Shown: in pieces, positions 5,945 to 56,587 of the stretch | How positions within the stretch are numbered: the first letter of the stretch is position 1 | Layout: the number at the start of each line of letters is the position of its first letter | Notes under the pieces: model-generated | The model's database searches: none | The model's input: the letters and a program-made list of their open reading frames with translations, nothing else | What the model was told of the DNA's origin: nothing | Translations under genes and position numbers: made by a program | NCBI RefSeq assembly: GCF_900163795.1 | Contig: NZ_FWFD01000015.1 | Coordinates: forward strand, 124,001 to 188,000 | Direction: 5' to 3' | DNA length: 64,000 nt | Origin: Vagococcus fluvialis bH819 | GTDB lineage: Bacteria > Bacillota > Bacilli > Lactobacillales > Vagococcaceae

Positions 5945-6499
5945 ATGTTTAGATATAATGTACGTGGAGAAAACATTGAGGTTACTCAAGCAATAAGAGA
6001 GTATGTTGAGAAAAAAATTGGTAAATTAGAAAAATATTTTACTAATGTTCCAGAATCAACAGCACACGTTAATTTAAAAGTTTATTCAGATAAGACTGCT
6101 AAAGTAGAAGTAACGATACCATTACCATACTTAGTTTTAAGAGCTGAAGAAACTTCTCCAGATTTATACGCTAGTATTGATTTAGTAGTTGATAAATTAG
6201 AAAGACAAATTAGAAAATACAAAACTAAAATAAACCGCAAGTCTAGAGAAACTGCCTTAGATACAGTAGCAGCTGCAGCGATTTTCGAATCAGAAGCAGT
6301 AGAAACTAACGACGAACCAGATTTAGAAATCGTTAGAACAAAACGTTTATCATTGAAACCGATGGATAGTGAAGAAGCTGTATTACAAATGAATATGTTA
6401 GGTCATAACTTCTTTATCTTTGAAGATTCAGAAACAAATGGCACAAGCATTGTTTATCGTCGTAAAGATGGAAAATATGGCTTAATTGAAACAAACTAA
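5945..6499 (+). CDS. hpf: Long-form ribosome hibernation promoting factor
   Basis: At 184 residues this is the long HPF of Firmicutes, which dimerises 70S ribosomes into inactive 100S particles. The N-terminal S30AE domain (about 1-100, starting [14 protein letters not shown]) binds the decoding region. A linker follows, then the C-terminal dimerisation domain (about 125-184, ending with [20 protein letters not shown]). In enterococci and relatives hpf is usually directly followed by secA; here more than 17 kb separates them. A strong terminator follows. Confidence 0.96.
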
Positions 6500-6510
6500 T
6501 TAATGAATAA

Positions 6511-6546
6511 ATAAAAACGTCAGGAATTTTAATTCTTGACGTTTTT
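6511..6546 (+). terminator. Terminator after hpf
   Basis: AAAACGTCAGGAATT pairs with AATTCTTGACGTTTT (one G-T wobble) and is followed by T residues. It isolates hpf from the island that follows. Confidence 0.88.
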
Positions 6547-6634
6547 TAGTAGTTTTTTATCTAACAAAATAGTGATAAAATATCGACAATATTTTATTAG
6601 TCGTTTTTGATATGATAGACATGGGGAGATAAAT

Positions 6635-7708
6635 ATGGAAGATATATTTACGATAAGTCCGTTATTCAATAATTTCGAGTTAGATCAATTGTTTATTAAC
6701 AATATAAATGATTGGTTATTAGAAGAAAAAATAAATGCAAAGTTAAGATTTTTTCCTTATGTGGATTATAATGATCCGTTACAAACGGCCTTAGCTTACT
6801 ATAAGCAACCGATTAAAACAGTAGTCACTGAAGGGTATTTTGGTTTTTCTTCAGAATCAAGATATGGTTATGCTGATTCAAACAAAATACTTATTATAGA
6901 TGTTGGCTCTATTTTGGGTAGTAAAATAGTACCACAGATTGCAAAGGCACCTTTAATGGCAAGTACTCATGAAATCGGCAGAGTTTTAAAGAAAAAAGTA
7001 CGCCCAGAAACAAAGAGAATAATTTTTACAAATGTTACCAATATAGCACCCGATCTTGGTTTGGGCTTTTTAGAGGAACTCGGAATTGAATTTTATGATA
7101 AAAATAATAAAAAGATAAAAGTCAGCAGTGGGAAAATTGGACAAATTAATAGTTTTTCATATGAGAAAATACCGAATAAGTGGCTTGGATATGAGTATTT
7201 AATACTTAATAATCATGATGATTCAACTTCTTTAATAGGCGAAAAAAGTATCTCATATGAAAATCAGGAGTTAACAGGTGCAAGTCCTGAAATTGCTAAA
7301 TTATTAGAGCGTGAAACCTTGAAAGCGGTTAATACTTTTGAGAAAATATTAAGAAAAAGAATAATGTATCAACCTGAATCAAGCGTTGGAAATGGCTTTG
7401 CATTTGGTTGCTTATCTTTTTTTAGAAATGTAGTAGTTCAAGATCAGCTGCAGGCGTTTATTGATTTAACAAATGTTGGAGAAAGTATTCAAAAAACTGA
7501 TTATTTTATTTTACCAGATTATTATTTTTCATTTAGAGAACTATTAAGTAAGCAAAATAAAGTATCTTTTATTTTATCTAGTGAAGGAACTAAAAAAGAT
7601 AATGATCATGAAATTGAAATCCCTATTGTTCCGATATGTATAGAAAACAAAGAGTGGTTACAAAGACAAATTCAATTTATGATAAAAATGTTTTATCTAA
7701 AAAAATAA
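6635..7708 (+). CDS. Divergent glycerate-kinase-like protein, catalytic motifs lost
   Basis: This 357-residue protein is not clearly recognisable, but its layout resembles glycerate kinases of the GarK/GlxK family: a strand then STHEIGRVLK, GLGFLEELGIEFYD, SSGKIGQINSF, TGASPEIAKLLERE and a late region ending TDYFILPD. The glycine-rich GIGGSATNDGG loop expected before GLGFLEELG reads FTNVTNIAPDLG, and the C-terminal GEGRxD motif is also missing. It is therefore unlikely to be an active kinase. The start has GGGGAG at good spacing. It precedes the cobalamin riboswitch and may be the first island gene. The family link is inference; function unknown. Confidence 0.45.
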   Translation: MEDIFTISPLFNNFELDQLFINNINDWLLEEKINAKLRFFPYVDYNDPLQTALAYYKQPIKTVVTEGYFGFSSESRYGYADSNKILIIDVGSILGSKIVPQIAKAPLMASTHEIGRVLKKKVRPETKRIIFTNVTNIAPDLGLGFLEELGIEFYDKNNKKIKVSSGKIGQINSFSYEKIPNKWLGYEYLILNNHDDSTSLIGEKSISYENQELTGASPEIAKLLERETLKAVNTFEKILRKRIMYQPESSVGNGFAFGCLSFFRNVVVQDQLQAFIDLTNVGESIQKTDYFILPDYYFSFRELLSKQNKVSFILSSEGTKKDNDHEIEIPIVPICIENKEWLQRQIQFMIKMFYLKK

Positions 7709-7718
7709 TAAGCTAGTC

Positions 7719-7747
7719 TTGTTAATAAATTAACATAATGATATAAT
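7719..7747 (+). promoter_or_regulatory. Promoter of the riboswitch/antisense RNA with overlapping Rex-like operator
   Basis: TTGTTA (7719-7724) and TATAAT (7742-7747) are exactly 17 bases apart, an excellent vegetative promoter; transcription should begin near 7754. The palindrome TTGTTAATAAATTAACAT (7719-7736) matches the clostridial-type Rex site TTGTTAA-N4-TTAACAA at 13 of 14 fixed positions. It covers the -35 box and most of the spacer, so a bound repressor would block the promoter. The palindrome is seen; Rex as the binder is inference. Confidence 0.65.
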
Positions 7748-7754
7748 TAATATT

Positions 7755-7935
7755 AAATTTGAATAAACAGAAGGAAATCAGTTTAAATCTGATGCTATAC
7801 CCGTAACTGTAATGTGGACGATATAAATAACCACGACATTTTTGTTGGAAGGATTTATAGAGAGTGAAGCAAAGCCAGGATACTTCTTATCATGATTTTT
7901 TCGGGAGTAAAAAAATCGATGTGCTAACTTTTTTA
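7755..7935 (+). ncRNA. Cobalamin (B12) riboswitch
   Basis: The conserved core is recognisable in order: GGAAATCAG (from about 7773), CCCGTAACTGTAA (7800-7812, against the consensus CCCGCAACTGTAA), and the B12 box AAAGCCAGGATACTT (7871-7885), followed by CGGGAG. It binds adenosyl- or methylcobalamin in nascent RNA. A strong terminator begins about ten bases downstream, so the likely effect is termination when B12 is present. The next gene, pocR, lies on the opposite strand, so the regulated product is an RNA running antisense to pocR. Boundaries are approximate. Confidence 0.9.
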
Positions 7936-7944
7936 TGGAAACAT

Positions 7945-7979
7945 AAAGAGCATTTCGCTTTTTTGAAATGCTCTTTTTA
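7945..7979 (+). terminator. Riboswitch-linked terminator
   Basis: AAAGAGCATTTC (7945-7956) pairs perfectly with GAAATGCTCTTT (7965-7976), loop GCTTTTTT, followed by T residues. It is the expression platform of the B12 riboswitch on the + strand and could also end pocR transcription on the - strand, where the T run is poorer. Confidence 0.9.
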
Positions 7980-8001
7980 TATTGTCTATAATAATTTAAA
8001 A

Positions 8002-8991
8002 TTATTGGCGTTTTGATTCCTTTTGGATAATTTGACGATACTCTCTAGGCGATATATTCGTTACTTTTTTAAAAAGTTTACTAAAATAGCTAGATTGAGA
8101 AAAGCCCAAACTATGAGCAATACTGTCAATTGACCAAGTCGAGTCTTGAAGTAAAATTTTAGAACGATTAATTTTTTTCTCATTGACATAATCAACAAAA
8201 TTTTTTCCAACTTCTTTTTTAAACAACTTACTGAAATAATAACCAGATAAATAGACATGATCTGCGACTTCATCTAGAGTAATAACTTCATTTAAATGTC
8301 TGTTAATGTAACTAAGTGCGTCAATAATTTCTTGTCGTTCAGAAACATTTTTTTCCAAATCGTTGGAAGTACTTTCCACATGGTTTAAAGATATTTTTTC
8401 TTCATTGATTGCCAACTTGTCTTTTTTAGAAAAAATATGGTTTGGAATATTAATAGGTTCCTTTATTGATAAATGGCTACTCATAATATCAGAAAGATAA
8501 TAATTAATGATAATAGTTAGTAATTGGCTTCCGGCCCTAATCTTTTCTGGAGTTGTAAAAGGCATATTATTATAAGCTTCTTTAAAAAAAGGATCGTCAT
8601 CCCATTTGGTTTTTTCATTTATAATGGGCTGAAATTCTGAAATGTTTTTAATCTTTGTTTGACCACAAAGAATGTAGCCAATTACTTGGTTATCAATTGT
8701 GACAGGATATGAGAAATCAACCAAACCAGCGTGACAAATGTAGGGCGTTGTCATATTATTTTTTAAGGAACTCCTACCACCGAACATGTCACAATTTTGG
8801 CATAGTTGCCTAGTGTCCTCATTATTTCTCATTAATTGACAAAAAGGTGAAAAACCATAACCGGCAGTTAATTCATTACCTTGGGTATCTACTAGAATGG
8901 TAGCTAAACCCGTTGCTTCGGTGAATTCACTAAGTATGGTATCTAAAATTTTTTGATGTGACTCGAGGTATTGAGAGTGATCGTCTATCAA
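8002..8991 (-). CDS. pocR: PocR, AraC-family activator of propanediol utilisation
   Basis: A 329-residue regulator with an N-terminal PocR sensory domain (about residues 10-175), which contains the cysteine cluster typical of the family (CQLM, CQNCD, CHAG). The C-terminal AraC double helix-turn-helix (about 218-325) includes ITLDEVADHVYLSGYYFSKL and SIDSIAHSLGFSQSSYFSKL. Related proteins activate pdu and cob genes in response to 1,2-propanediol. It starts with TTG at 8991 behind AAAGGAG. It is transcribed away from pduA, and its 3' end faces the B12 riboswitch, so it is probably under antisense control. Confidence 0.9.
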   Translation of the reverse strand: MIDDHSQYLESHQKILDTILSEFTEATGLATILVDTQGNELTAGYGFSPFCQLMRNNEDTRQLCQNCDMFGGRSSLKNNMTTPYICHAGLVDFSYPVTIDNQVIGYILCGQTKIKNISEFQPIINEKTKWDDDPFFKEAYNNMPFTTPEKIRAGSQLLTIIINYYLSDIMSSHLSIKEPINIPNHIFSKKDKLAINEEKISLNHVESTSNDLEKNVSERQEIIDALSYINRHLNEVITLDEVADHVYLSGYYFSKLFKKEVGKNFVDYVNEKKINRSKILLQDSTWSIDSIAHSLGFSQSSYFSKLFKKVTNISPREYRQIIQKESKRQ

Positions 8992-9017
8992 ATTATGTTC
9001 TCCTTTCCAAGAAATAT

Positions 9018-9047
9018 AATATGATTAATTTGCTCATTTATTAACAA
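9018..9047 (-). promoter_or_regulatory. Putative pocR promoter with Rex-like half site
   Basis: On the - strand TTGTTA (9047-9042) is followed at 18 bases by CATATT (9023-9018), a weak -10. The stretch 9047-9030 reads TTGTTAATAAATGAGCAA, sharing its first 12 bases with the antisense promoter at 7719 and matching the Rex pattern at 12 of 14 fixed positions. TATTAACA (9039-9046) also forms a perfect inverted repeat with TGTTAATA (9053-9060). The shared sequence suggests one regulator for both promoters; its identity is inference. Confidence 0.45.
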
Positions 9048-9165
9048 AATAATGTTAATACTTATTTATTATACCTCAATTTTTTTTATTGTGAAGTTAT
9101 TTAAACCAACCGTTTTGTTTTGAACGCTAAATTTAAGGACAACAAAATTCTGCAAATTAATAATA

Positions 9166-9183
9166 AAGTGAATATTATCACAA
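9166..9183 (+). promoter_or_regulatory. Palindromic operator candidate upstream of pduA (Rex- or CRP/FNR-like)
   Basis: AAGTGAATATTATCACAA is a near-palindrome (GTGA-N6-TCAC). It fits the Rex pattern TTGTGAA-N4-TTCACAA at 11 of 14 positions and also a CRP/FNR-type site. It lies about 35 bases upstream of the likely pduA -10 box. Confidence 0.4.
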
Positions 9184-9219
9184 AAAAGCTATGACAAAAA
9201 TGTCGTAGTTTTTTTTTTT
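9182..9219 (+). terminator. Hairpin with T run between pocR and pduA
   Basis: A 15-bp stem (9182-9196 with 9201-9215, containing GCTATGACA and TGTCGTAGT) has an AAAA loop and a run of eleven Ts. It has the form of an intrinsic terminator for + strand transcription. It could end the RNA antisense to pocR, or attenuate pdu transcription if the pdu promoter lies upstream. TATACT (9219-9224), overlapping the end of the T run, is a possible pduA -10 box without a good -35, as expected for an activator-dependent promoter. Confidence 0.7.
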
Positions 9220-9269
9220 ATACTCAGTTTGTAAGAAAAAACAAAATGAAATACTTAGGAGGATCTATC

Positions 9270-9566
9270 ATGCAACAAGAAGCATTAGGTTTAATAGAAA
9301 CAAAAGGATTGATTGCATCGATTAATGCAGCTGACGCAATGGTGAAGGCGGCAAACGTTAATCTTGTTGGACAAGAAAAAATCGGACAAGGTCTTATTAC
9401 AACGATGATACGTGGTGATGTTGGGGCAGTAAAAGCAGCAATTGATGCAGGCGTTGTCGCAGCTGAATCAATTGGAGAAGTTATTTCTAACTATGTTATT
9501 CCTCGTCCACACACCGATGTGGAAGCGATTTTACCTATGATTAATATAGAAAGTATTAGTGAATAG
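9270..9566 (+). CDS. pduA: PduA, BMC-domain hexameric shell protein
   Basis: A 98-residue single-BMC-domain protein forming shell hexamers with a central pore for propanediol. [17 protein letters not shown] and the [20 protein letters not shown] motif are typical, with [11 protein letters not shown]-like residues in the centre and the usual ending VIPRPH. An upstream in-frame ATG at 9246 has no ribosome binding site; TAGGAGG (9256-9262) fixes the start at 9270. First gene of the pdu operon; pduB begins three bases after its stop. It is very similar to PduJ further downstream. Confidence 0.96.
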
Positions 9567-9568
9567 TC

Positions 9569-10375
9569 ATGGCTGCTAATGAAGAAGAAATTTTAAATAG
9601 AGTAATGGAAAAATTAATGTCATCTTCAGATTCAATGAATGATGGGATTATGTCAAAGGATGATAAAAAGATGGATAAAAAGCAAAGCGCATTAACAGAA
9701 TTTGTCGGAACAGCTAATGTTGGTGACACTATCGGATTAGTAATTGCAAACGTTGATTCTCATCTAGCTAAAGTAATGAAGTTGAAAAAAGACTATCGTT
9801 CTATCGGAATTATCGGTGCTAGATCAGGTGCTGGTCCGCAAATTACAGCGGCAGATGAAGCCGTTAAATCAACTAATACTGAAATTATAAGTGTTGAATT
9901 ACCAAGAGATACAAAAGGTGGCGGTGGTCACGGCGTTTTAATTATCTTTGGTGGAGAAGATGTATCTGATGTTAGACGTGCTGTTGAAATAACGCTTAAA
10001 GATACAGAACGTACTTTTGGAGATGTTTATAACAATGAAGCAGGACATATTGAATTACAATATTCAGCACGTGCAAGTTATGCTCTTCAAGAAGCTTTTG
10101 GTGCAGAGTTAGGTAAAGCATACGGCTTAATTGCGGCAGCACCTGCTGCTATTGGTGTAGTGATGGCTGATACAGCAGTAAAAGCAGCTAATGTTGAAGT
10201 GATTTCATACGCTTCACCAAATAATGGACAAAAATACTCAAATGAAGTAACCATTCATATAAAAGGTGATTCAGGAGCTGTTAAACAAGCAGTTATTGCA
10301 GCAAGAGAAGTTGGAAAAGATTTACTACATACTTTAGGTAGTGAACCAGTAAATGATTTTCCATCATATATTTAA
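9569..10375 (+). CDS. pduB: PduB, tandem-BMC trimeric shell protein
   Basis: A 268-residue protein with two BMC domains in tandem (about 55-160 and 165-265) that forms trimers in the shell. The N-terminal helix EEEILNRVMEKLM looks like the segment that links the shell to the enzyme core. In Salmonella an internal start yields a shorter PduB'; here Met codons at residues 22, 28 and 35 could act likewise, but none has a clear ribosome binding site. It probably depends on translational coupling to pduA. Confidence 0.95.
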   Translation: MAANEEEILNRVMEKLMSSSDSMNDGIMSKDDKKMDKKQSALTEFVGTANVGDTIGLVIANVDSHLAKVMKLKKDYRSIGIIGARSGAGPQITAADEAVKSTNTEIISVELPRDTKGGGGHGVLIIFGGEDVSDVRRAVEITLKDTERTFGDVYNNEAGHIELQYSARASYALQEAFGAELGKAYGLIAAAPAAIGVVMADTAVKAANVEVISYASPNNGQKYSNEVTIHIKGDSGAVKQAVIAAREVGKDLLHTLGSEPVNDFPSYI

Positions 10376-10396
10376 TTGTTGGGAGGAAAAAAATAA

Positions 10397-12061
10397 ATGA
10401 GACGTTCAAAAAGATTTGAAGTACTTGAACAGCGTGAAGTTCATAAAGATGGATTCGTTAAAGAATGGATAGAAGAAGGCTTTATTGCAATGGAAAGTCC
10501 CAATGATCCTAAGCCAAGTATCATAATTGAAAATGATGTTATTACTGAATTAGATGGCAAAAAAAGAGCAGACTTTGACTTAATTGATTATTATATTGCA
10601 GATTATGGTATTGATAAAGATAATGCAGAAAAAGTGTTAGCGATGGATTCTGTTAAATTAGCAACAATGATGGTGGATCCTAATGTTGCTCGTGATGAAA
10701 TTATTAGTTTGACAACTTCAATGACACCCGCAAAAATCGTTGATGTTGTTAGCCAAATGAACATGGTAGAACTGATGATGGCTATGCAAAAAATGCATGC
10801 TAGAAGACGACCTGCTACACAATCTCATGTAACAAACTTACGTGATAACCCAGTACAAATCGCAGCAGATGCAGCAGAAGGTGCTTTCAGGGGATTTGCT
10901 GAACAAGAAACAACCGTTGCTGTTGGTAGATATGCGCCATTTAATGCGATAGCTATTTTAATTGGTTCTCAAGTTGGCCGGCCTGGTGTTTTAACCCAAT
11001 GTTCTGTTGAAGAATCAGCTGAGCTTGATTTAGGAATGCGTGGCTTCACATCATATGCTGAAACAATTTCAGTATATGGAACTGAACCAGTTTTTACAGA
11101 TGGGGATGATACTCCTTGGTCTAAAGGTTTCTTAGCATCTTGTTATGCTTCTCGTGGATTGAAAATGCGATTTACTTCTGGTTCTGGTTCTGAAGTTATG
11201 ATGGGCTATGCAGAAGGTAATTCTATGCTTTATTTAGAAGCAAGATGTATTTTTATTACTAAAGCAAGTGGTGTTCAAGGACTACAAAATGGTGCTGTTA
11301 GTTGTATTGGTATTCCTGGTTCTGTTCCTTCAGGTATTCGTGAAGTATTAGCAGAAAATTTAATCTGCTGTATGTTAGACCTAGAAGTAGCATCAGGAAA
11401 CGATCAAGCATTCTCTCATTCAGATATGAGACGCACAGAAAAATTAATGGGTCAATTTTTACCAGGAACAGATATTATATCATGTGGTTATTCTGCAGTA
11501 CCAAACTACGATAATATGTTTGCTGGTTCTAATACTGATATTGAAGATGTGGATGATTATTTAGTTTTCCAACGTGATTTAAAAGTTGATGGAGGACTTC
11601 GACCAGTTACAGAAGAAGAAACCATAAAAGTTAGAAATAAAGCTGCAAGAGCTATTCAAGTCATTTTTGATGAATTAGGTTTTCCAAAAATTACAGATGA
11701 AGAAGTAGAAGCTGCTACTTATGCACATGGGTCTAAAGATATGCCAGATCGTAATTTAGTAGAAGATATGAAAGCAGCACAAGAAGTATTAACTAGAGGA
11801 TTAACAGGTGTTGATTTAGTTAAAGCATTAGCTAATGGTGGTTTCAGAGATGTAGCAGATGATTTATTGAGCTTACTAAAACAACGTATTTCTGGTGACT
11901 TTTTACAAACGTCAGCTATTTTTGATGAAAAATTCAATGTTATTTCAGCAGTTAATGATTGTAATGATTACCAAGGACCAGGAACTGGTTATAGATTAGA
12001 AGGAGAAGAGTGGGAAAAGGTAAAAGATATTCCAATGGCGATTGACCCACGTTCTGTCTAG
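10397..12061 (+). CDS. pduC: Propanediol (glycerol) dehydratase, large subunit
   Basis: The 554-residue catalytic alpha subunit is full length. It forms the TIM barrel that holds substrate and potassium and, with adenosylcobalamin, converts 1,2-propanediol to propionaldehyde (or glycerol to 3-hydroxypropionaldehyde). It begins MRRSKRFEVLEQREVHKDG, typical of PduC/DhaB1, and contains FTSGSGSEVMMGYAEG and GIPGSVPSGIREV. It lies between pduB and pduD with a GGGAGG site. Diol and glycerol dehydratases cannot be told apart here by eye; the pdu gene order favours propanediol. Confidence 0.96.
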   Translation: MRRSKRFEVLEQREVHKDGFVKEWIEEGFIAMESPNDPKPSIIIENDVITELDGKKRADFDLIDYYIADYGIDKDNAEKVLAMDSVKLATMMVDPNVARDEIISLTTSMTPAKIVDVVSQMNMVELMMAMQKMHARRRPATQSHVTNLRDNPVQIAADAAEGAFRGFAEQETTVAVGRYAPFNAIAILIGSQVGRPGVLTQCSVEESAELDLGMRGFTSYAETISVYGTEPVFTDGDDTPWSKGFLASCYASRGLKMRFTSGSGSEVMMGYAEGNSMLYLEARCIFITKASGVQGLQNGAVSCIGIPGSVPSGIREVLAENLICCMLDLEVASGNDQAFSHSDMRRTEKLMGQFLPGTDIISCGYSAVPNYDNMFAGSNTDIEDVDDYLVFQRDLKVDGGLRPVTEEETIKVRNKAARAIQVIFDELGFPKITDEEVEAATYAHGSKDMPDRNLVEDMKAAQEVLTRGLTGVDLVKALANGGFRDVADDLLSLLKQRISGDFLQTSAIFDEKFNVISAVNDCNDYQGPGTGYRLEGEEWEKVKDIPMAIDPRSV

Positions 12062-12085
12062 TAAGAAATCGAGAGGATGAAAAAA

Positions 12086-12796
12086 ATGTCAGAAACAGCA
12101 GTTAATGAAAAATTGTTAAGAGCAATTATTCGTGATGTATTAAAAGAAATGCCACTTGATGATAAACCAGTGACGTTTCAAGAAACAGCAGATACTAGTA
12201 CTAAGGCTAATGATACAAGTGAGCGTGTTGTAACAGCGTTAAAACAGGTAGATTGGTTTAAATCTGCGGGCGTTGCAAAAGCAGGTTCGTCTCAAGACGA
12301 GGTAGTTGTTGCAGTAGCACCAGGATTTGCTGAAGCGATGACAGAGAACTTACTAGGCACATCTCATAAAGAAATTATTCGTCAAGTTGTTGCGGGAATT
12401 GAAGAAGAAGGATTAAGAGCAAGAGTTGTTAAAGTATTCAGAACTGCTGATGTTTCGTTTATTGGAGCAGAAGCTGATAAGTTATCAGGTTCAGGCGTTG
12501 CGATTGGTATTCAATCAAAAGGGACAACGATTATTCATCAGAAAGATTTAGAGCCTTTATCTAATCTTGAGTTATTTCCTCAAGCACCAACTATTTCTTT
12601 AGATACGTATCGTGCAATTGGCAAGAATGCTGCGAAATATGCTAAGGGAGAATCACCTGATCCGGTACCAACAGTAAGCGATCAAATGTCACGTGTTGCT
12701 TATCAAGCAAAATCAGCCATGATGCATATTAAAGAAACAAAATATGTGATTATTGGTAAACCTGCAGAAGAAATTCAAGTAGATTTCTCTAAATAA
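12086..12796 (+). CDS. pduD: Propanediol dehydratase, medium subunit
   Basis: The 236-residue beta subunit of the B12-dependent diol dehydratase helps bind the cobalamin. It begins with an amphipathic helix ([20 protein letters not shown]), the kind of N-terminal extension that directs the dehydratase into the microcompartment in Salmonella. Then come a low-complexity linker and the Rossmann-like domain (about 55-230). The start at 12086 lies nine bases from GAGG; an upstream ATG at 12077 touches that site and was rejected. Confidence 0.94.
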
Positions 12797-12811
12797 TAGG
12801 GAGGGAAAAAA

Positions 12812-13324
12812 ATGACAGAGATGGATAATTTAATAAAAAAAATCAAAGAACAAATGGAACTATCAGAACAAGATCAGAGTAGTGTAGCAACATATTCACC
12901 AACTGAAAAAACAATGGACCGTAATGATTATCCCTTATATGAAAAACATCCAGACTTAGTTAGGGCACCAAGTGGTAAAAAATTAGCTGATATTACATTA
13001 GAAAGTGTCTTAGCTAATGAAGTCAATACGCAAGATTTACGTGTGACAAAGGAAACATTGAAGTATCAGGGTGAGATTGCAGCTAATTCAGGAAGAGCTG
13101 CCATTCAACAAAATTTTGCTAGAGCAGCAGAATTAACAGTTATTCCAGATGATCGATTATTAGAAATGTACGGTTCTTTAAGACCATATCGATCATCAAA
13201 ACAAGAACTACTTGATTTAGCAAGTGAATTGGAAAATAAGTATCAAGCAACAATCACTGCCAATTTCTTTAGAGAAGCAGCTAATTATTACGAGAAACGA
13301 AAAAAATTAAAAGGTGATAATTAG
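12812..13324 (+). CDS. pduE: Propanediol dehydratase, small subunit
   Basis: The 170-residue gamma subunit completes the alpha2-beta2-gamma2 dehydratase. The C-terminal two-thirds contain the typical block around LADITLESVLANEV, LRVTKETLKYQGEIAANSGR and DRLLEMYGSLRP. The N-terminus EMDNLIKKIKEQM is another amphipathic helix like those on PduD, PduL, PduM and PduP. It has a GGGAGGG site and lies tightly between pduD and pduG. Confidence 0.95.
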   Translation: MTEMDNLIKKIKEQMELSEQDQSSVATYSPTEKTMDRNDYPLYEKHPDLVRAPSGKKLADITLESVLANEVNTQDLRVTKETLKYQGEIAANSGRAAIQQNFARAAELTVIPDDRLLEMYGSLRPYRSSKQELLDLASELENKYQATITANFFREAANYYEKRKKLKGDN

Positions 13325-13338
13325 ATTAGGAGGCAATC

Positions 13339-15183
13339 ATGAAAAAAGTCATTGGTGTTGATATAGGAAACTCCTCTACAGAAGTGACATTAGCAACTGT
13401 CACATCCAATGGTAGTGTCGATTTTCTTGCTTCTTCTTTATCAGAAACAACAGGTATTAAAGGAACACGTCATAATGTCATAGGTATTAAAAATGCTATT
13501 AACTTAATGTTGCAAAAAACGGATTTAAGAACAACTGATATTGATTTAATTCGTATTAATGAAGCTACGCCTGTTATTGGAGATGTGGCCATGGAAACAA
13601 TTACAGAAACGATTATAACCGAGTCAACGATGATAGGTCATGATCCTAAGACACCAGGTGGTGAGGGGATTGGCATAGGTTACACTGTTTTGTTACCTGA
13701 GCTTTACGAAAAACAGGATAAGACAAAATCTTATATTGTAGTTATACCAAAAGAGATTGATTTTGATGACGCGGCTCAGTTAATTAATTTATATGCTGAG
13801 TTTGGTTTTAAAATATGTGCGGCAATTTTACAACGAGACGACGGCGTCTTAATTAATAATAGATTGAAGCAAGTGATTCCAATCGTTGATGAAGTGGCAT
13901 TTATTGATAAAGTACCACTTAATATGTTAGCAGCTGTTGAAGTTGCTAGAAAAGGTCAAGTGATTTCAGAATTAGCTAATCCTTATGGGGTAGCAACTGT
14001 CTTTGATTTAAGCCCAGAAGAAACTAAAAATATTGTTCCTGTTTCACGTGCCTTGATTGGTAATCGATCAGCAGTAGTGATTAAAACACCAGAAGGAGAT
14101 GTAAAAGCAAGAACAATTCCAGCAGGTCATTTAATTATCAAAGGTGATAATCATACCGAAAAAGTTGGAATATCTGATGGTGCCGAAAAAATAATGAAAA
14201 CAGTCTCTGATTTCAACTACATAGACAATGTAACAGGTGAGCCTGGAACAAATATTGGTGGTATGTTGGAACGAGTACGTCAAACGATGGCAGAATTAAC
14301 AGATAAAGAATTAAAAAATATTTTTATTCAAGATTTATTAGCAATTAATACTTTTGTTCCTTTGGATGTTAAAGGTGGAATAGCAGGAGAATTTTCTTTA
14401 GAACAAGCGGTTGGGATTGCTTCAATGGTGAAGTCAGATCATTTACAAATGTCCCTAATTGCTGAAGAAGTTGAAAAAGAAATTGGCATTCCAGTTGAAA
14501 TAGGTGGTTCAGAAGCAAGTGCAGCAATTTTAGGTGCACTTACAACAGCTGGAACGAATAAACCATTAGCGATATTAGATTTAGGAGCCGGTTCAACAGA
14601 TGCTTCTATTATTGATAAATCAGGGAAAACGACGGCCATTCATTTAGCAGGTGCTGGAGATATGGTTACTATGATTGTTGACTCTGAACTTGGTTTGGAT
14701 GATCGTTACTTAGCAGAATCGATTAAGAAATATCCTTTAGCAAAAGTAGAAAGCTTGTTTTATATCAGGCATGAAGATGGAACAGTGGAGTTCTTTGATA
14801 AAGCCTTACCAGCTAATATTTTTGCGAAAGTTGTTGTTATTACTCCAGACGGATTTGTCCCAATTCCAGGAGATTTGAGTATTGAGAAAGTTAAAATCGT
14901 TCGTCAAACAGCTAAAGAGAGGGTTTTCGTTACGAATGCGTTACGAGCTCTGGCTCATGTTAGTCCAACAGGAAATATTCGTGATATTCCTTTTGTTGTT
15001 ATTGTCGGTGGATCTGCTTTAGATTTTGAAGTTCCACAATTAGTAACAGAAGCGTTGTCCCATTATTCACTCGTTGCTGGAAGAGGAAATATTCGCAAAA
15101 CTGAAGGACCTAGAAATGCGGTTGCTACGGGATTAATTTTAGCTTATTCAGATGAATTGAAGGGAGAATGTCATGGTGAGTAG
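13339..15183 (+). CDS. pduG: Diol dehydratase reactivase, large subunit
   Basis: The 614-residue large subunit of the chaperone-like factor swaps damaged cobalamin out of inactivated dehydratase using ATP. The ASKHA-type phosphate-binding loop GVDIGNSSTEVTLA is at residues 5-18, and a second nucleotide-binding motif, DLGAGSTDASI, is near 415. The length matches DdrA/PduG. It overlaps pduH by 11 bases, consistent with translational coupling of the two subunits. Confidence 0.96.
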   Translation: MKKVIGVDIGNSSTEVTLATVTSNGSVDFLASSLSETTGIKGTRHNVIGIKNAINLMLQKTDLRTTDIDLIRINEATPVIGDVAMETITETIITESTMIGHDPKTPGGEGIGIGYTVLLPELYEKQDKTKSYIVVIPKEIDFDDAAQLINLYAEFGFKICAAILQRDDGVLINNRLKQVIPIVDEVAFIDKVPLNMLAAVEVARKGQVISELANPYGVATVFDLSPEETKNIVPVSRALIGNRSAVVIKTPEGDVKARTIPAGHLIIKGDNHTEKVGISDGAEKIMKTVSDFNYIDNVTGEPGTNIGGMLERVRQTMAELTDKELKNIFIQDLLAINTFVPLDVKGGIAGEFSLEQAVGIASMVKSDHLQMSLIAEEVEKEIGIPVEIGGSEASAAILGALTTAGTNKPLAILDLGAGSTDASIIDKSGKTTAIHLAGAGDMVTMIVDSELGLDDRYLAESIKKYPLAKVESLFYIRHEDGTVEFFDKALPANIFAKVVVITPDGFVPIPGDLSIEKVKIVRQTAKERVFVTNALRALAHVSPTGNIRDIPFVVIVGGSALDFEVPQLVTEALSHYSLVAGRGNIRKTEGPRNAVATGLILAYSDELKGECHGE

Positions 15184-15502
15184 ACCAACGATTTATATCA
15201 CAAAAATGACACCATCAATTGATATTAAATATTTGCTATACGGTATGGAAGAAGAAGGAATACCTAGTGAAATAAGGGGAACAACTCAAAAAGAATTAAT
15301 TAAAGCTGCCTACGAACAGGCTTTGAAGTCTCCTTTAGCAGTAGGTATTGCAATAGATGAAAAACAAGCGGTGCTTCATTATAAAAATCTACCAGAAGAA
15401 GAACCTTTGTTTATGGTAGAAAACAAACGAGAGACAATGATGACTCTTGGAAAAAATGCAGCTCGTTTAGTAAAAGGGATTCCTTTTAAACTAGATGTTT
15501 AG
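15173..15502 (+). CDS. pduH: Diol dehydratase reactivase, small subunit
   Basis: The 109-residue small subunit (DdrB-like) resembles the dehydratase beta subunit and displaces it during reactivation. The pattern LLYGMEEEGIPSEI near residue 22 and LGKNAARLVKGIPF at the C-terminus are typical. It starts inside the end of pduG with AAGGGAG upstream. Confidence 0.93.
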   Translation: MVSRPTIYITKMTPSIDIKYLLYGMEEEGIPSEIRGTTQKELIKAAYEQALKSPLAVGIAIDEKQAVLHYKNLPEEEPLFMVENKRETMMTLGKNAARLVKGIPFKLDV

Positions 15503-15513
15503 GACGTGAAAAA

Positions 15514-16029
15514 ATGAATCAAGCATTAGGACTGATTGAAGTAGTTGGATTTGGTTGTGCCGTGAATGTTTCAGATGTGATGGTAAAAACTGCTAATGTT
15601 ACTATTGTTGGCATTGAACGAGCGAAAGGTTCTGGCTGGCTAACGGTTAAAGTTTTAGGTGATGTTGGGGCAGTGAACGCGGCTGTTGAATCTGGTGAAG
15701 TAGTTGCTAAAAAAGATCAAACATTTATTGCTTCAAAAGTTATTCCTCGTTTAGGCGAAGGTTTGGATATCTGGCTAAAAAAAGGAATAGATGCTAGCAC
15801 AGAAAAAAATTTAGCACCCAAAATAGCCATAGAAACACCAACTATTGAAGTGGTTGAATCAGAGCTCATAAGTAAAGATAGTGAAATATCTCTTGAACTT
15901 ACAGAGTCTGAAAATACAGATAGTTATACTTGTAACTTATGTAAAGATACAATGTGTACTCGAAAAAAAGGTGAACCAAGAAAAGAATGTTCACACTATG
16001 AAGAATTAAAAGATAAAGAAGAAAAATAA
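15514..16029 (+). CDS. pduK: PduK-like shell protein with C-terminal cysteine cluster
   Basis: A 171-residue protein: an N-terminal BMC domain (about 1-90, [14 protein letters not shown] then [12 protein letters not shown]), a linker, and a C-terminal tail with four cysteines (CNLCKDTMC followed by ECSHYEE). This cysteine set is like the Fe-S-binding extension of PduK. The role is a minor shell component, possibly a site for an iron-sulphur cluster. It sits between pduH and pduJ, as in Salmonella and Listeria. Confidence 0.85.
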
Positions 16030-16057
16030 AACTAATAATATATCGGAGGAATTTATC

Positions 16058-16333
16058 ATGAATAACGCATTAGGAATGATTGAAACAAAAGGGTTAGTAG
16101 GAGCAATTGAAGCAGCAGACGCTATGGTTAAAGCAGCCAATGTAACATTAGTAGGGACAGAAAAAATTGGATCAGGGCTTGTAACAGTTATGGTACGTGG
16201 TGATGTAGGAGCTGTGAAAGCAGCAGTTGACGCAGGAACTAGTGCCGCTGAATCTGTCGGAGAAGTATTTGCTTCTTATGTTATTCCCCGTCCTCATACA
16301 GATGTTGAAGGAATTTTACCAGAAAAAAAATAG
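16058..16333 (+). CDS. pduJ: PduJ, BMC-domain hexameric shell protein
   Basis: A 91-residue single-BMC protein very similar to PduA ([49 protein letters not shown]). It forms major shell hexamers. The ribosome binding site TCGGAGG is strong. PduA and PduJ look like duplicated paralogues; the assignment as J rests on its position between pduK and pduL. Confidence 0.95.
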
Positions 16334-16355
16334 TCAAAGAAAGTCAGGATAGAAA

Positions 16356-16979
16356 ATGAATGAAGTAGAGTTAAGAGCATTAATAAAAAAAATAATTGAA
16401 GAAGAGATGCAACCTAAGATACCAGTAGGTGTTTCTAATCATCATATTCATTTGACTCAATCTGATTTTGAAACATTATTTCCGGGCCAAGAAATGACCG
16501 TAAAGGTTCCTTTAAAACAGCCAGGAGAATTTGCTTCTAATCAAACAGTGACCATTGTTGGTTCTAAAGGAGAAATTAGTAATGTTCGTATTTTAGGACC
16601 ATGTAGGAAACAATCTCAAGTTGAGTTATCTAAAACGGAAGCTAGACAAATTGGGGTTAATGTTCCAATTAGAATGTCAGGTGATTTAAATGGTACGCCA
16701 GCAGTTACTGTGAAAACCAAAGACGCTCAAGTGGAAATTCAGGGAGCGATTGCAGCTAAGCGTCATATTCACATGAGCAATATTGACGCTCAAATGTTAG
16801 GTGTATCGAAAGGTCAAATCGTAAAAGTTTCAGTAGAATCAGAAGGTAGAAGAACAATATTTGATGATGTTGTCGTTCGTCCAGATCCTAAATTTGTTTT
16901 AGAAATGCATATTGATACAGATGAAGCTAATGCTGCAAATGTAGGTAAAGGAACAGTTGCGACATTAGTGAAAGAGTAG
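16356..16979 (+). CDS. pduL: PduL, phosphate propanoyltransferase
   Basis: A 207-residue phosphotransacylase that converts propionyl-CoA and phosphate to propionyl phosphate and recycles CoA inside the microcompartment. It contains the hallmark VGVSNHHIHL (about residues 23-32) and the second His-rich segment AAKRHIHMS (about 130-138), which bind the zinc ions. The N-terminal helix VELRALIKKIIEEEM is an encapsulation-type peptide. It feeds PduW. Confidence 0.95.
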   Translation: MNEVELRALIKKIIEEEMQPKIPVGVSNHHIHLTQSDFETLFPGQEMTVKVPLKQPGEFASNQTVTIVGSKGEISNVRILGPCRKQSQVELSKTEARQIGVNVPIRMSGDLNGTPAVTVKTKDAQVEIQGAIAAKRHIHMSNIDAQMLGVSKGQIVKVSVESEGRRTIFDDVVVRPDPKFVLEMHIDTDEANAANVGKGTVATLVKE

Positions 16980-16991
16980 AATAAAGATAAT

Positions 16992-17091
16992 AATCACCAT
17001 AAACTAAAATAAAATGTGATAGTCTCAGAGGTCGTTGTTTACGCATGTTTTATTATATTTAGTCACATATTTTGATTAGTATATGGTGATA
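16992..17091 (+). other. Large imperfect RNA hairpin in the pduL-pduM gap
   Basis: The 150-base gap, the widest in the operon, holds nested complementary arms: ATCACCATA (16993-17001) with TATGGTGAT (17082-17090), and inside it ACTAA...ATGTGA (17003-17019) with TCACAT...TTAGT (17063-17080). The loop is about 43 bases. No T run follows, so it is not a simple terminator. It could be a processing or stability element. I see no known riboswitch core in it. Confidence 0.5.
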
Positions 17092-17129
17092 TTTTGATAA
17101 TTTTAGTAAATAAAATTAGGAGATAAGGT

Positions 17130-17642
17130 ATGGATGAGGATAACTTAATCAAGTTGATTAAAGAAAAACTGATAGCAAGAGAAAATACTAAAGATAGTGT
17201 TGTCTATCAGCATTATGGTCAGATTGAAACACCTCCTAATACCTCATTATTTAAAAAGTGCCGAACACTTGAAATTAGCCATGTCTCCATTCAGCTGATG
17301 AATGAGTTGTATAGATTTGAAAAAACTCCTTGGACAGATTGGATTTTTACAGGCTTATCTTATCAAACATTATTTTATTTTGAAATCAATTATTTTATTT
17401 TGCCGTTTATCCCTTGGCAAATGTTGATCGAATGGCCAGTTGAATTTATGATTTCAAATCAAAAAATTTGTAGTTTTCAAGAAAGAACACTGACCCGATC
17501 AATGATTGCTAAATTGCCAGATGATGTCATTTTAGTGAAAATGAAGCAACAAAAATTAACTGAAGAAGCGACAGAGTTTATTCGAAATAAAAAAATTAAA
17601 GTGATAGAAAGGTCAAATCAATCATGTATATGGGAAGAGTAG
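17130..17642 (+). CDS. pduM: PduM-like microcompartment assembly protein
   Basis: A 170-residue protein in the pduM position between pduL and pduN. PduM is needed for well-formed microcompartments in Salmonella, though its mechanism is unknown. Visible features are an N-terminal amphipathic helix (EDNLIKLIKEKLI), a central hydrophobic and aromatic region (about 75-115) and no catalytic motif. AGGAGA precedes the start. Its 3' end overlaps pduN by 19 bases. The call rests mostly on position and size. Confidence 0.7.
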   Translation: MDEDNLIKLIKEKLIARENTKDSVVYQHYGQIETPPNTSLFKKCRTLEISHVSIQLMNELYRFEKTPWTDWIFTGLSYQTLFYFEINYFILPFIPWQMLIEWPVEFMISNQKICSFQERTLTRSMIAKLPDDVILVKMKQQKLTEEATEFIRNKKIKVIERSNQSCIWEE

Positions 17643-17896
17643 TTGGCTCTATTGAAGCTAGCCAAAAGGATCAATCGTTAACCGGAAAAAAATTAATGAT
17701 TGTTCAACAAGTTAATAGTGATAAAGAAGCTATTAGGTACGAAGAAGTTGCTGCAGATACAGTCGGTGCGGGCGTTGGTGAGTACGTACTTTTAGTAAAA
17801 GGGGCAGGAGCCAGAAAATCAAATAAAGAGGCGTATCAGATAAAAGATGTTGTGGATTGTGCCATTGTAGGTATCATTGATCGGTTTAACAAGTAA
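17624..17896 (+). CDS. pduN: PduN, pentameric vertex protein (EutN/CcmL family)
   Basis: A 90-residue protein of the EutN/CcmL family whose pentamers cap the vertices of the shell. It begins MYMGRVVGSIEAS and contains GAGVGEYVLLVKGAGAR, the usual family block. The start lies within the end of pduM, suggesting coupled translation. Confidence 0.93.
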   Translation: MYMGRVVGSIEASQKDQSLTGKKLMIVQQVNSDKEAIRYEEVAADTVGAGVGEYVLLVKGAGARKSNKEAYQIKDVVDCAIVGIIDRFNK

Positions 17897-17915
17897 AGAT
17901 AGGTTGTGTTAAAAA

Positions 17916-18500
17916 ATGTCCATTTATACTAAAACAGGAGACAAAGGAACAACAAGTCTTTTTGATGGTCAACGAGTTAAAAAATATTCAACACGAGTGG
18001 ATACTTACGGAACTTTTGATGAGTGTAATACATGCATTAGTATTGCTGAGAAGTTCTGTCAAAAACAAGAAAATAAAGAATTTTTAATTCATTTACAATA
18101 TAAAATTTTTCAACTTTCTGGTGAAATTGCCACAATGAATCAACAAAAATTTCAAAATAAAAGTGAGCAAATTTCAGCTATCGATATTCAAGAACTAGAA
18201 GAAAAAATTGATGAGTATACTGAAAAATTACCTAAAATTACGACGTTTATTTTACCAGGAACAAGCTTAGCTGGTGCTCATTTACATCAGAGTCGTGCTG
18301 TTTGTAGGAGAGGTGAGAGAATGCTTGTCTTACTTTCCGAAGAAGAAGAAATCCGTTCTGAAGTATTACAATTTGTTAATCGTCTCTCGGATTGTTTGTA
18401 CATTATAGCTCGAGATGAAGATCATATTGAAAGAAAAGAAGAACAAGTCAAAGAAATTATTCGTCGTTATTATGAGAAAGAGTGTGAGTCTGTTGAATGA
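17916..18500 (+). CDS. pduO: Cob(I)alamin adenosyltransferase, PduO type (N-terminal domain protein)
   Basis: A 194-residue protein that makes adenosylcobalamin from ATP and cob(I)alamin. The start SIYTKTGDKGTTSLFDG is the family signature; VDTYGTFDECNT and LHQSRAVCRRGER give the ATP- and cobalamin-binding residues. In Salmonella PduO this domain is fused to a DUF336 domain; here a stop at 18498 separates the two, and the next gene overlaps. It supplies cofactor for PduCDE. Confidence 0.95.
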   Translation: MSIYTKTGDKGTTSLFDGQRVKKYSTRVDTYGTFDECNTCISIAEKFCQKQENKEFLIHLQYKIFQLSGEIATMNQQKFQNKSEQISAIDIQELEEKIDEYTEKLPKITTFILPGTSLAGAHLHQSRAVCRRGERMLVLLSEEEEIRSEVLQFVNRLSDCLYIIARDEDHIERKEEQVKEIIRRYYEKECESVE

Positions 18501-18972
18501 TATAGATAAACTTGTTGAAAAAGCGTTAATAAATATTCAAGCAGAAGCGTTATTTAGTAAACTTAATTTGCAAAAAACAATTGATGCAGCAGAGCGTAAG
18601 GCACAAGAAATAGCTGTTCCAGTAACTATTTGTATTAGCGATATTTCAGGGAACCCTAGAATGCTTTACCGTATGGAAGAAGCTAAGCTAGTTAGTTTAA
18701 CTTTAGCACCTAAGAAAGCATTATCTGCTTTACTTATGCAATCAGAAACGAAAGATTTAAATAAAGAAACACAACCAAATGGAGAGCTCTATCAAATAGA
18801 AACGATGATGGATGGAAAACTGGTAACATTTGCTGGTGGCATTCCCATTTTTTATCAAGAAAAAATAATCGGTGCTATTGGAGTTAGTGGTGGTAAAGTT
18901 TCAGAAGATCAAGCAATTTGCGAGACAGCAGTTACAACATTTTTAGAAGGAGAGTCATTATGTCAACTTTAG
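18472..18972 (+). CDS. GlcG/HbpS (DUF336) domain protein, detached PduO C-terminal domain
   Basis: A protein of up to 166 residues with a GlcG/HbpS-like domain: KTIDAAERKAQEIAVPVTIC, LAPKKALSALL, and FAGGIPIFYQEKIIGAIGVSGG. In Salmonella PduO the equivalent domain binds haem. The start is uncertain: ATG 18472, GTG 18484 or TTG 18493 are in frame and none has a strong ribosome binding site, so coupling to the upstream stop is likely. Its end overlaps pduP by 13 bases. Confidence 0.85.
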   Translation: MRKSVSLLNDIDKLVEKALINIQAEALFSKLNLQKTIDAAERKAQEIAVPVTICISDISGNPRMLYRMEEAKLVSLTLAPKKALSALLMQSETKDLNKETQPNGELYQIETMMDGKLVTFAGGIPIFYQEKIIGAIGVSGGKVSEDQAICETAVTTFLEGESLCQL

Positions 18973-20369
18973 AAGAACAAATCAGAAAAATATTAGCTGA
19001 AGAATTAAACAATGATACAACTAGCGTTACTGAGGTAACTGATAATAATAAAGGTGTTTTTAAAACTGTCAATGAAGCAGTTTTAGCAGCGAAAGCAGCA
19101 CAAGAAAATTTTGTGGATTGTTCGATGGAAACACGTGATAAAGTAATTGAAAGTTTAAAGACAGGTTTTGCACCTTTATTAGATCATATTGCTTCAGAAA
19201 TCTTGATCGAAACAGGTATGGGAACTAAAGAAGCTAAAATCAAAAAATTAGAAAATGCATTGTTTAATACTCCTGGGACAGAAGATCTAACATCAGAAAT
19301 TCAAACAGGAGATGGCGGCTTAATCATGTATGAATACGCTCCTTTTGGGGTTATTGGAGCAGTAACACCAAGTACGAATCCAGTTGAAACAGTTATTGCG
19401 AATGCCATCATGATGTTGGCTGGTGGAAACACAGTGTACTTTAGTGTTCATCCAGGAGCAAAAAACATTTCACGTTGGGCAGTTGAAAAATGTAATGAGT
19501 TTATTGAAGCGTCTGTGGGATTAAAAAACTTAGTGGTTACAATTGAAAAACCATCAATTGAAGCTGCTCAAGAGATGATGATTCATCCAGATATTGCAGC
19601 CTTAGTTGTAACTGGTGGACCTGGTGTGGTTCATCAAGCCATGATAAGTGGTAAAAAAGCAATTGGAGCAGGCGCTGGTAATCCACCCGCAATGGTCGAT
19701 AAAACAGCGAATGTAGCATTAGCTGCAAAAAATATTGTTGATTCAGCAGCGTTTGACAACAATATCCTTTGTACTGCTGAAAAGGAAGTTATTGCAGAAC
19801 AACCAATTAAAGATGAATTAATTCGTTTAATGGAAAAAGAAGGAGCATTTTTAGTCACTAGTTCAAAAGATATTGAGACATTGACAGCTATGACTCTTAC
19901 AGAAAAAGGAACGCCAAGTCGCGACTTTATTGGTAAGGATGCTAAATTTATTCTTGATAGTGCTAAAATTTCTTATTCTGGCGAACCTAAATTAATAATA
20001 TTAGAAACACCTAAAGACCATGCGTTAGTGGTTAAAGAAATGTTAATGCCGATTGTACCAGTTGTTTGTGCCAGTGATTTTGATGACATGTTAGCAACGG
20101 CTTTGGAAGTTGAAGGAAATAATCATCATACGGCTTCTATTCATTCAGGAAATCTAGTAAATATTAATAAAGCAGCTCATCGTATGAATACATCAATTTT
20201 TGTTGTAAACGGTCCAACTTATTCAGGAACAGGTGTTGGCTTCACAGGAGCATCAGCCTTAACAATTTCTACACCAACTGGAGAAGGAACAACAACGGCT
20301 AAGACATTTACACGTCGTCGTCGCTTAAATTCACCAGAAGGCTTTTCTATGAGAGTTTGGAGGGACTAA
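18960..20369 (+). CDS. pduP: PduP, CoA-acylating propionaldehyde dehydrogenase
   Basis: A 469-residue enzyme that oxidises propionaldehyde with NAD and CoA to propionyl-CoA inside the shell. STLEEQIRKILAEEL at the N-terminus is an encapsulation peptide. VTPSTNPVETV and the catalytic Cys in NNILCTAEKEV (about residue 280) identify the class. The start at 18960 follows AGAAGGAGA; an earlier in-frame ATG at 18918 lies inside the previous gene without a site. It is coupled through NADH to PduQ. Confidence 0.96.
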   Translation: MSTLEEQIRKILAEELNNDTTSVTEVTDNNKGVFKTVNEAVLAAKAAQENFVDCSMETRDKVIESLKTGFAPLLDHIASEILIETGMGTKEAKIKKLENALFNTPGTEDLTSEIQTGDGGLIMYEYAPFGVIGAVTPSTNPVETVIANAIMMLAGGNTVYFSVHPGAKNISRWAVEKCNEFIEASVGLKNLVVTIEKPSIEAAQEMMIHPDIAALVVTGGPGVVHQAMISGKKAIGAGAGNPPAMVDKTANVALAAKNIVDSAAFDNNILCTAEKEVIAEQPIKDELIRLMEKEGAFLVTSSKDIETLTAMTLTEKGTPSRDFIGKDAKFILDSAKISYSGEPKLIILETPKDHALVVKEMLMPIVPVVCASDFDDMLATALEVEGNNHHTASIHSGNLVNINKAAHRMNTSIFVVNGPTYSGTGVGFTGASALTISTPTGEGTTTAKTFTRRRRLNSPEGFSMRVWRD

Positions 20370-20370
20370 A

Positions 20371-21489
20371 ATGAATCAATTTATCATACCAACAAAAATT
20401 TATTCAGGTGTCGATAGTTTAGATATCTTACAGCAACTTACGAATCAACGAATATTAATGGTGTGTGATTCATTTTTACCAGATACTGATAGTTTGAAAC
20501 GAATCCAACAAAAAATTTCTAATAGTAATGCTGTTGAAATTTTTTCTGATGTAAAACCAGATCCACCGTTAGATAATATTATGTCAGGTGTTCAAAGTTA
20601 TCAGGCTTTTAGACCGACTGTTATGATTGGGATTGGCGGTGGTTCAGCCATAGATACGGCGAAAGCTATTCGCTATTTTGCTGAAAAACTGACCGATGAA
20701 TTAATTAAAAGTTTTATTGCGATACCTACGACTAGCGGAACGGGTTCGGAAGTGACGAATACAGCGGTAGTCTCTGATACCAAAAATGGTGTCAAGTTTC
20801 CTATTATTATGGATCATTTAACACCGGATATCGCATTATTAGATCCCGCTCTAGTGGTTAGTGCGCCTAAAAGTGTGACTGCGTATTCAGGATTAGATGT
20901 CTTAACACATGCGTTAGAAGCACTAGTTGCTAAAAATAGTGATTTGTTTACAGATGCATTAGCAGAAAAAGCAATTGAAGTTATTTCTAATGATTTAACA
21001 TCAGCTTATGCTAACGGAAATGATATTGAGATAAGACAAAAAATTCATGAGGCTTCTTGTGAGGCAGGATTAGCATTCAATATGGCAGGTTTAGGAATTT
21101 GCCATTCATTAGCACATCAGTTAGGCGCTAAATTTCATGTTCCCCATGGTTTAGCGAATGCGATGCTGTTACCTTACATCATTGCTTTTAATGGTAAAGA
21201 TCCTCAAGTTGCTGAGAAGTATGCTTTAGCAATTAAAAAATCAGGCATTGGTTCTGCAAGTTTGAGTAATCAAATGCAAATTAAAAGAATGGAAAAACAC
21301 ATTTTTAAAATGATGAAAGAGATGAATTGTCCTAAAACACTAGTTGAATTTGGTATTTCAGAAAAAGAAATCTTAACTAATCTAGATTGGATAGTTGCTC
21401 ATGCAAAAGAGGATGGAACATTTCCTGGAAATCCTATTGTTCCTTCTGATAATGAATTAAAAGAACTGGTAAAAAAAATAATCAAATAA
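20371..21489 (+). CDS. pduQ: PduQ, iron-dependent 1-propanol dehydrogenase
   Basis: A 372-residue group III (iron-containing) alcohol dehydrogenase that reduces propionaldehyde to propanol and regenerates NAD for PduP. GIGGGSAIDTAKAI (about residues 88-101) binds the nucleotide. The metal ligands lie in the region GICHSLAHQLGAKFHVPHG (about 246-264). It starts one base after the pduP stop. Confidence 0.93.
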   Translation: MNQFIIPTKIYSGVDSLDILQQLTNQRILMVCDSFLPDTDSLKRIQQKISNSNAVEIFSDVKPDPPLDNIMSGVQSYQAFRPTVMIGIGGGSAIDTAKAIRYFAEKLTDELIKSFIAIPTTSGTGSEVTNTAVVSDTKNGVKFPIIMDHLTPDIALLDPALVVSAPKSVTAYSGLDVLTHALEALVAKNSDLFTDALAEKAIEVISNDLTSAYANGNDIEIRQKIHEASCEAGLAFNMAGLGICHSLAHQLGAKFHVPHGLANAMLLPYIIAFNGKDPQVAEKYALAIKKSGIGSASLSNQMQIKRMEKHIFKMMKEMNCPKTLVEFGISEKEILTNLDWIVAHAKEDGTFPGNPIVPSDNELKELVKKIIK

Positions 21490-21508
21490 AATAATAAGGA
21501 GTTTATAC

Positions 21509-22216: not shown

Positions 22217-22237
22217 TTAACAGAAAGGAAGAATAAT

Positions 22238-23416: not shown

Positions 23417-23458
23417 CAAGTGAATTAGTAAATAGACAGTATTTGTTTTATGAAAATG

Positions 23459-56486: not shown

Positions 56487-56506
56487 GAATAAATATTTTA
56501 TAAATA

Positions 56507-56571: not shown

Positions 56572-56587
56572 AAAAATGGGTTAATTG

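Follow-up and report, generated by a model that had tools for sequence, protein, structure and literature searches.

A probable antisense cobalamin riboswitch opposite pocR in Vagococcus fluvialis bH819

A 64,000-nucleotide stretch of the Vagococcus fluvialis bH819 genome (RefSeq assembly GCF_900163795.1, contig NZ_FWFD01000015.1, positions 124,001 to 188,000; hereafter the window) carries a cobalamin riboswitch that is convergent, tail-to-tail, with the activator gene pocR and is very probably an antisense riboswitch of the AspocR type (Table 1). The aptamer, the terminator, the orientation, the lack of a sense gene, the conservation of the arrangement and the co-variation over nine loci support this reading directly, and from it we infer that the RNA senses B12, in which direction it responds, which transcripts are made and that pocR is repressed. 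Transcription would start near 7754 and, with B12 bound, would stop at 7945-7978 to give a short RNA, predicted to be about 225 nt long when it ends at 7978. Without B12, read-through would produce an RNA antisense to the whole pocR ORF, its leader and its promoter, with an end probably at 9182-9219. This RNA would lower PocR by base-pairing and/or transcription interference, and the pdu genes would consequently stay off unless the diol dehydratase cofactor is available.

Table 1. Features of the riboswitch-pocR-pduA region (window coordinates)
Feature	Position	Strand	Remarks
Glycerate-kinase-family gene	6635-7708	+	Just upstream of the riboswitch; Pfam match over, NCBIfam match below cut-off
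Riboswitch promoter	7719-7747	+	TTGTTA-17-TATAAT, TG ahead of the -10; 10/12 consensus matches
Cobalamin riboswitch (RF00174 match)	7725-7905	+	Full model length
Predicted RNA start	~7754	+	From the promoter position
Predicted long antisense RNA	7754-9219	+	~1,466 nt, AspocR-like, on read-through
P13-like hairpin	7894-7917	+	Read from sequence and alignment; appears in folds
Predicted antiterminator strand	7916-7926	+	Partly complementary to the terminator 5' arm
Intrinsic terminator	7945-7976, T-run to 7978	+	13 pairs, loop of 6
pocR	8002-8991	-	329 aa, TTG start; AraC-family activator, Pfam PocR sensory domain and AraC HTH
pocR promoter	9068-9095	-	TTCACA-16-TATAAT, 11/12; within the region that the antisense RNA would cross
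Hairpin with T-run before pduA	9182-9219	+	-15.3 kcal/mol, z = -6.3
pduA-like BMC shell gene	9270-9566	+	First gene of the pdu operon; ORF from 9246, position 9270 follows AGGAGG

The cobalamin riboswitch and its conservation opposite pocR

A preliminary description of this DNA had proposed a cobalamin riboswitch together with a covariance search as its check, and that search confirmed the element, which reached 56.0 bits with Rfam RF00174 (gathering score 31.5; E = 3.2e-11). The 5' end of the match overlaps the -10 element of the promoter, and the transcribed part of the aptamer begins near 7754.

A close pocR (E ≤ 1e-60) was found in 19 of 395 genomes of the order. In Rfam scans of all 19 loci, 18 showed a riboswitch that lies directly beyond the pocR 3' end and is encoded on the other strand; locus L059 (genome G356) has a close pocR without a riboswitch at the gathering score. 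Ten of the 18 loci also match Rfam rliH and are termed Listeria here by that sign, and Loigolactobacillus jiayinensis (L038) is an additional carrier. The nine non-Listeria loci are those of the window, L007, L008, L009, L010, L038, L046, L047 and L048, with L036 (the same record as L047) and L037 (the same as L010) each counted once. A class-level search found pocR at E 1e-50 in one of 398 genomes, the window's own, which says little about its spread because the other carriers of the order cannot have been in the class sample.

A background was obtained from 13 genomes and is valid for those only: the window's genome, 11 chosen for a close pocR (three of them Listeria) and G024, chosen for lysR. 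Among 46 RF00174 hits in these genomes, the next gene lies in sense orientation for 30, whereas pocR lies opposite 11 and lysR opposite four; the remaining hit (L088), sub-threshold at 24.6 bits, is opposite an adenosyltransferase-like gene. At L089, an 82-aa ORF overlapping the match was set aside. In a tree of 45 rows, from which two hits under 100 bases were left out, the nine non-Listeria pocR riboswitches formed one group (support 95/92). A shared origin of the Listeria copies and the others is neither supported nor rejected, as a single group of all 12 pocR riboswitches, Listeria included, gave an AU p of 0.403. A PocR tree of 22 rows requires two changes of the antisense label.

Transcription signals and switching strands

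The promoter, which had been described as near-perfect and as belonging to the riboswitch itself, was recovered as a predicted 10/12 pair, and a 10/12 pair stands at the same place in both same-genus relatives with an orthologous pocR locus. Promoter-like sites are frequent in this AT-rich stretch (24 between 7000 and 10000, against a mean of 15.3 and a standard deviation of 3.8 in shuffles), so the conservation weighs more than the consensus match itself. The promoter of L010 matches at 11 of 12 positions (TTGACT-17-TATAAT). Upstream of the aptamer, even the best pairs were poor in L009, L038, L046, L047 and L048, five of the nine non-Listeria loci (7-9/12), and in the three Listeria loci scanned (6-8/12). 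Transcription in those five loci could come from the upstream glycerate-kinase-like gene, a co-oriented gene that the preliminary description had left out.

The list of open reading frames agrees with the earlier statement that the only gene ahead of the riboswitch, up to pduA, is pocR on the opposite strand: no forward-strand ORF of at least 80 aa lies between the riboswitch and the pduA frame. A small protein encoded on the antisense RNA was considered and rejected, as the seven forward-strand ORFs listed for 7754-9222 (28-50 aa) have no Shine-Dalgarno sequence that is clear by eye. Between the aptamer and the next forward gene, pduA, there are about 1.36 kb and a terminator-like hairpin, and the arrangement thus differs from that of a canonical sense B12 riboswitch.

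That hairpin, which was absent from the preliminary description, is probably the 3' end of the long antisense RNA, a transcript predicted from the promoter, the terminators and the conservation of the hairpin. A hairpin with a T-run precedes pduA in eight of the nine non-Listeria loci, L038 being the exception. The Listeria rliH match stops some 85 nt short of pduA (L051: 2600 and 2685), and its end coincides with a hairpin and T-run seen by eye, which the perfect-stem scan did not report. Since the hairpin of the window is strongly conserved and abuts a TATACT box, it may also be an operator. The genome contains one exact match to the hairpin motif and two others with three mismatches, and a reversed control pattern gave one match; with only one exact match, a multi-site PocR operator was rejected, and the hairpin is possibly a single operator.

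The terminator at the end of the riboswitch (-14.9 kcal/mol, z = -5.6) had been recognized before as a perfect stem of 12 pairs; the terminator stands, with 13 pairs. The pocR end, formerly placed 22 bases past it, was counted at 25 bases from the stem and 23 after the T-run. In all nine non-Listeria loci a terminator is located at or just before the pocR 3' end, and in L009, L010, L046, L047 and L048 its palindrome spans the pocR stop codon, so that its 3' arm is coding. These five palindromes could equally end the pocR mRNA, and the hairpin may serve both strands.

Upstream of the terminator, CGGG (7902-7905) in the loop of the P13-like hairpin can pair with CCCG (7800-7803) of the L5 loop. 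The same pairing is possible by eye in all nine non-Listeria loci, and the alignment of these divergent loci retains the aptamer core and the P13 loop motif. In each of them the stretch after the P13 loop is able to pair with the terminator 5' arm. The mean energy of this antiterminator pairing is -12.5 kcal/mol with a locus's own arm versus -8.7 kcal/mol with the arms of other loci. Own-arm pairing was equalled in 0.026% of 100,000 permutations, a figure that overstates independence because the nine loci are related; for the six divergent loci, 2 of 720 permutations were as good. Some swapped pairs beat the cognate ones (the L046 and L048 antiterminators with the L047 arm), in the three same-genus loci other combinations in the matrix outdo the cognate one, and the antiterminator of the window (-8.8 kcal/mol) pairs better with five of eight foreign arms than with its own. 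Shuffled sequences paired as strongly as the observed ones 0 times per 1000 in L009 and L010, once in L038, 5 times in L046, 7 in L047, 9 in L048, 20 in the window, 29 in L008 and 85 in L007. Taken together, the nine loci support co-variation of the switching strands, but the signal is weak when the window or its genus is viewed alone.

By default the stretch in the window folds into P13 plus the terminator, and when it was folded without the terminator 3' arm, P13 and the antiterminator pairing coexisted. In the proposed switch, the contact between L5 and L13 would hold P13 and disfavour the antiterminator, which would otherwise take the 5' arm of the terminator; P13 and the antiterminator would then exclude each other in the window.

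Chromosomal site, known systems and alternative readings

The pdu genes of the window form an island between two genes that we take to be hpf (5945-6499) and secA (23706), the inserted stretch being 6500-23700. Most pdu gene names are likewise our own assignments from the sequences, and Pfam matches in the region are to BMC, the diol dehydratase large subunit and the reactivase. Among 29 genomes of the family, the glycerate-kinase-like gene stands beside hpf in three (G000, the window's own, G007 and G004). The gap between hpf and secA is 172-275 bases in 14, a partial secA match follows 1.1-1.3 kb on in four, and in eight secA is not reached within a short locus. Two of the 14 with close hpf and secA, G025 and G021, carry pocR and the riboswitch elsewhere. 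The riboswitch-pocR pair is thus kept at another site, which agrees with the earlier proposal that the circuit moves with the pdu module and suggests that it keeps with the module in the non-Listeria group.

AspocR is established in Listeria, according to passages of three papers (PMC8079631, PMC7154746, PMC7677406), and one of these passages gives lengths of 230 nt for the terminated form and 1,400 nt for the full one, with RliH as an anticipated processed piece of AspocR (PMC8079631). The element of the window, known from sequence alone, fits this model in anatomy and conservation, as the preliminary description had held. As in the portrayal of Listeria monocytogenes AspocR/Rli39-RliH (Mellin et al. 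2013), a cobalamin riboswitch is convergent with pocR, pduA lies just beyond pocR, and PocR activates pdu; the predicted RNA sizes of about 225 and 1,466 nt are also similar to 230 and 1,400 nt. Unlike in Listeria, the upstream gene is glycerate-kinase-like rather than phosphatase-like (by eye), and the hairpin before pduA abuts the TATACT box. PocR is 40-45% identical, and the aptamer scores 56 bits compared with 107-122 bits in Listeria.

The arrangement at pocR is already in print for this bacterial group. One main-text sentence of a 2023 survey reports that pocR has an antisense cobalamin riboswitch in other Listerias and in Vagococcus carniphilus (PMC9943018); the Vagococcus carniphilus case shares ligand class, target and bacterial group with the element of the window, and that main text presents it without an expression platform or a comparative analysis. 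A literature search for cobalamin riboswitches in Vagococcus yielded this survey and nothing else. Antisense transcription that begins 3' of its target and responds to a metabolite is also described for Clostridium acetobutylicum, where a SAM riboswitch is antisense to ubiG-mccBA (PMC9943018, PMC7154746). As described there, that system differs from the window in its ligand and in targeting an enzyme operon, with no regulator gene.

Other readings of the element were weighed against the same loci. The riboswitch might be a 3' extension of the glycerate-kinase-like transcript, with no promoter of its own, in which case the antisense RNA would be the long 3' UTR of this transcript and would still act on pocR but be expressed with the kinase-like gene. 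This gene accompanies the riboswitch-pocR-pduA unit in all nine non-Listeria loci (in L038 a pduU-like gene stands between it and the riboswitch), its stop codon is overlapped by the Rfam match in L009 and L046-L048, and five loci have no good promoter. However, a conserved putative promoter follows the gene in the window and in the two same-genus relatives, and L010 has its 11/12 pair; this reading is unlikely. Less probable again is a decayed or displaced sense riboswitch, whose hairpin would act as a convergent terminator with no role toward pocR. The near-symmetric hairpin, the pocR stop in or near its loop in five relatives and the weak antiterminator of the window would fit such decay, but the aptamer core and P13 loop motif are kept over nine divergent loci, the switching strands co-vary over the set, and the element remains opposite pocR when the module occupies another site.

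The position of pduA as the next gene on the same strand would also allow the pdu operon to have the element as a very long leader in sense orientation, with read-through into pduA. This is highly improbable, given the hairpin and T-run ahead of pduA in eight of the nine loci and the inverted logic by which a B12-dependent pathway would be on when B12 is absent. B12 riboswitches of eut loci are known to work by sequestration: in EutX/Rli55 the riboswitch belongs to a non-coding RNA that captures the response regulator EutV, and the regulator of a B12-dependent pathway is gated in this way, with no antisense action. The RNA proposed for the window would similarly be a B12-riboswitch RNA controlling a pathway regulator, with antisense action instead of sequestration. 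The window's genome has a eut locus (L063 9911-10059, G000:C10) with an AdoCbl riboswitch (RF01482, 108.2 bits) between genes that are presumably eutT-like and eutG-like, followed by presumably eutV/eutW-like genes, an arrangement that we take to resemble that of EutX/Rli55. Nevertheless, a trans-acting sequestering RNA is the least expected of these readings for the pocR locus, where the local regulator is an AraC-type PocR with Pfam matches to the PocR sensory domain and AraC-type HTH only and no ANTAR domain, and where the RNA would lie fully opposite pocR. As an AspocR-type antisense riboswitch, the element and its relatives add divergent examples of this mode of action outside Listeria. 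The pdu genes keep the circuit in more than one chromosomal location, and the circuit's putative switching strands are named and open to mutation.

A second convergent riboswitch and other riboswitches

A second cobalamin riboswitch of the window's genome (G000:C3:317779-317908, forward strand, 47.9 bits) sits after the ornithine-degradation genes orr, ord, ortB, oraE and Or-4 (NCBIfam, all above cut-off). It is convergent with a LysR-family gene, and a terminator stands before lysR (L004 1501-2648; L060 14780-15927; G000:C3:317779-318926). This lysR occurs in nine of the 395 genomes of the order and is accompanied by the riboswitch in four (G000, G007, G004 and G024). Past the 5' end of lysR, G000, G007 and G004 carry ECF transporter genes, and G024 has an adenosyltransferase-like gene there. 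Elsewhere in G024, a riboswitch-like hit of the same group (L146, 25.5 bits, below cut-off) is directly followed by ECF T and A relatives. The palindrome between lysR and ecfT has no T-run in G007 and therefore fits a LysR site better than a terminator. The best solved relative of the ECF S component is 6fnp_A (E = 2.4e-7), which is tied to a paper on a vitamin B12 ECF transporter, as its record indicates (PMC5997447). In Pfam the S component belongs to riboflavin-type and general S-component families, and its nearest NCBIfam match, to folate, is below cut-off.

We tentatively suggest, at a little under an even chance, that this is a second antisense B12 riboswitch, directed against the LysR regulator of the B12-dependent ornithine 4,5-aminomutase pathway, with read-through into a B12 ECF transporter. 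A single transcript would then both provide a B12 importer and shut off the activator of a pathway that consumes B12, and would represent a riboswitch-driven excludon. Together with the AspocR-type RNA (propanediol) and the EutX-like RNA (ethanolamine), it would bring to three the B12-dependent catabolic pathways gated through their regulators. This suggests that one genome can hold more than one antisense B12 riboswitch on a pathway regulator; what looked like a Listeria curiosity would then be a broader link between catabolic operons and their cofactor. The window's genome has CbiC and may therefore make B12 itself. No mention of an antisense riboswitch against lysR was found in the literature searched or in the main text of the 2023 survey, its supplementary tables aside (PMC9943018).

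Further riboswitches were noted in passing. Genome G004 has a second pdu-like cluster (L062 7223-9360) with a cobalamin riboswitch ahead of pduU/pduV-like genes, and the transcript of this cluster could extend antisense into a second pocR-like gene. The same genome carries tandem cobalamin riboswitches before a long protein with a signal-like N-terminus (G004:C1:1676337-1676744; L092, L100). In the window, a purine riboswitch at 56489-56586 on the forward strand (66.6 bits) stands in an ordinary sense arrangement before a phosphoribosyltransferase-like gene, as judged by eye.
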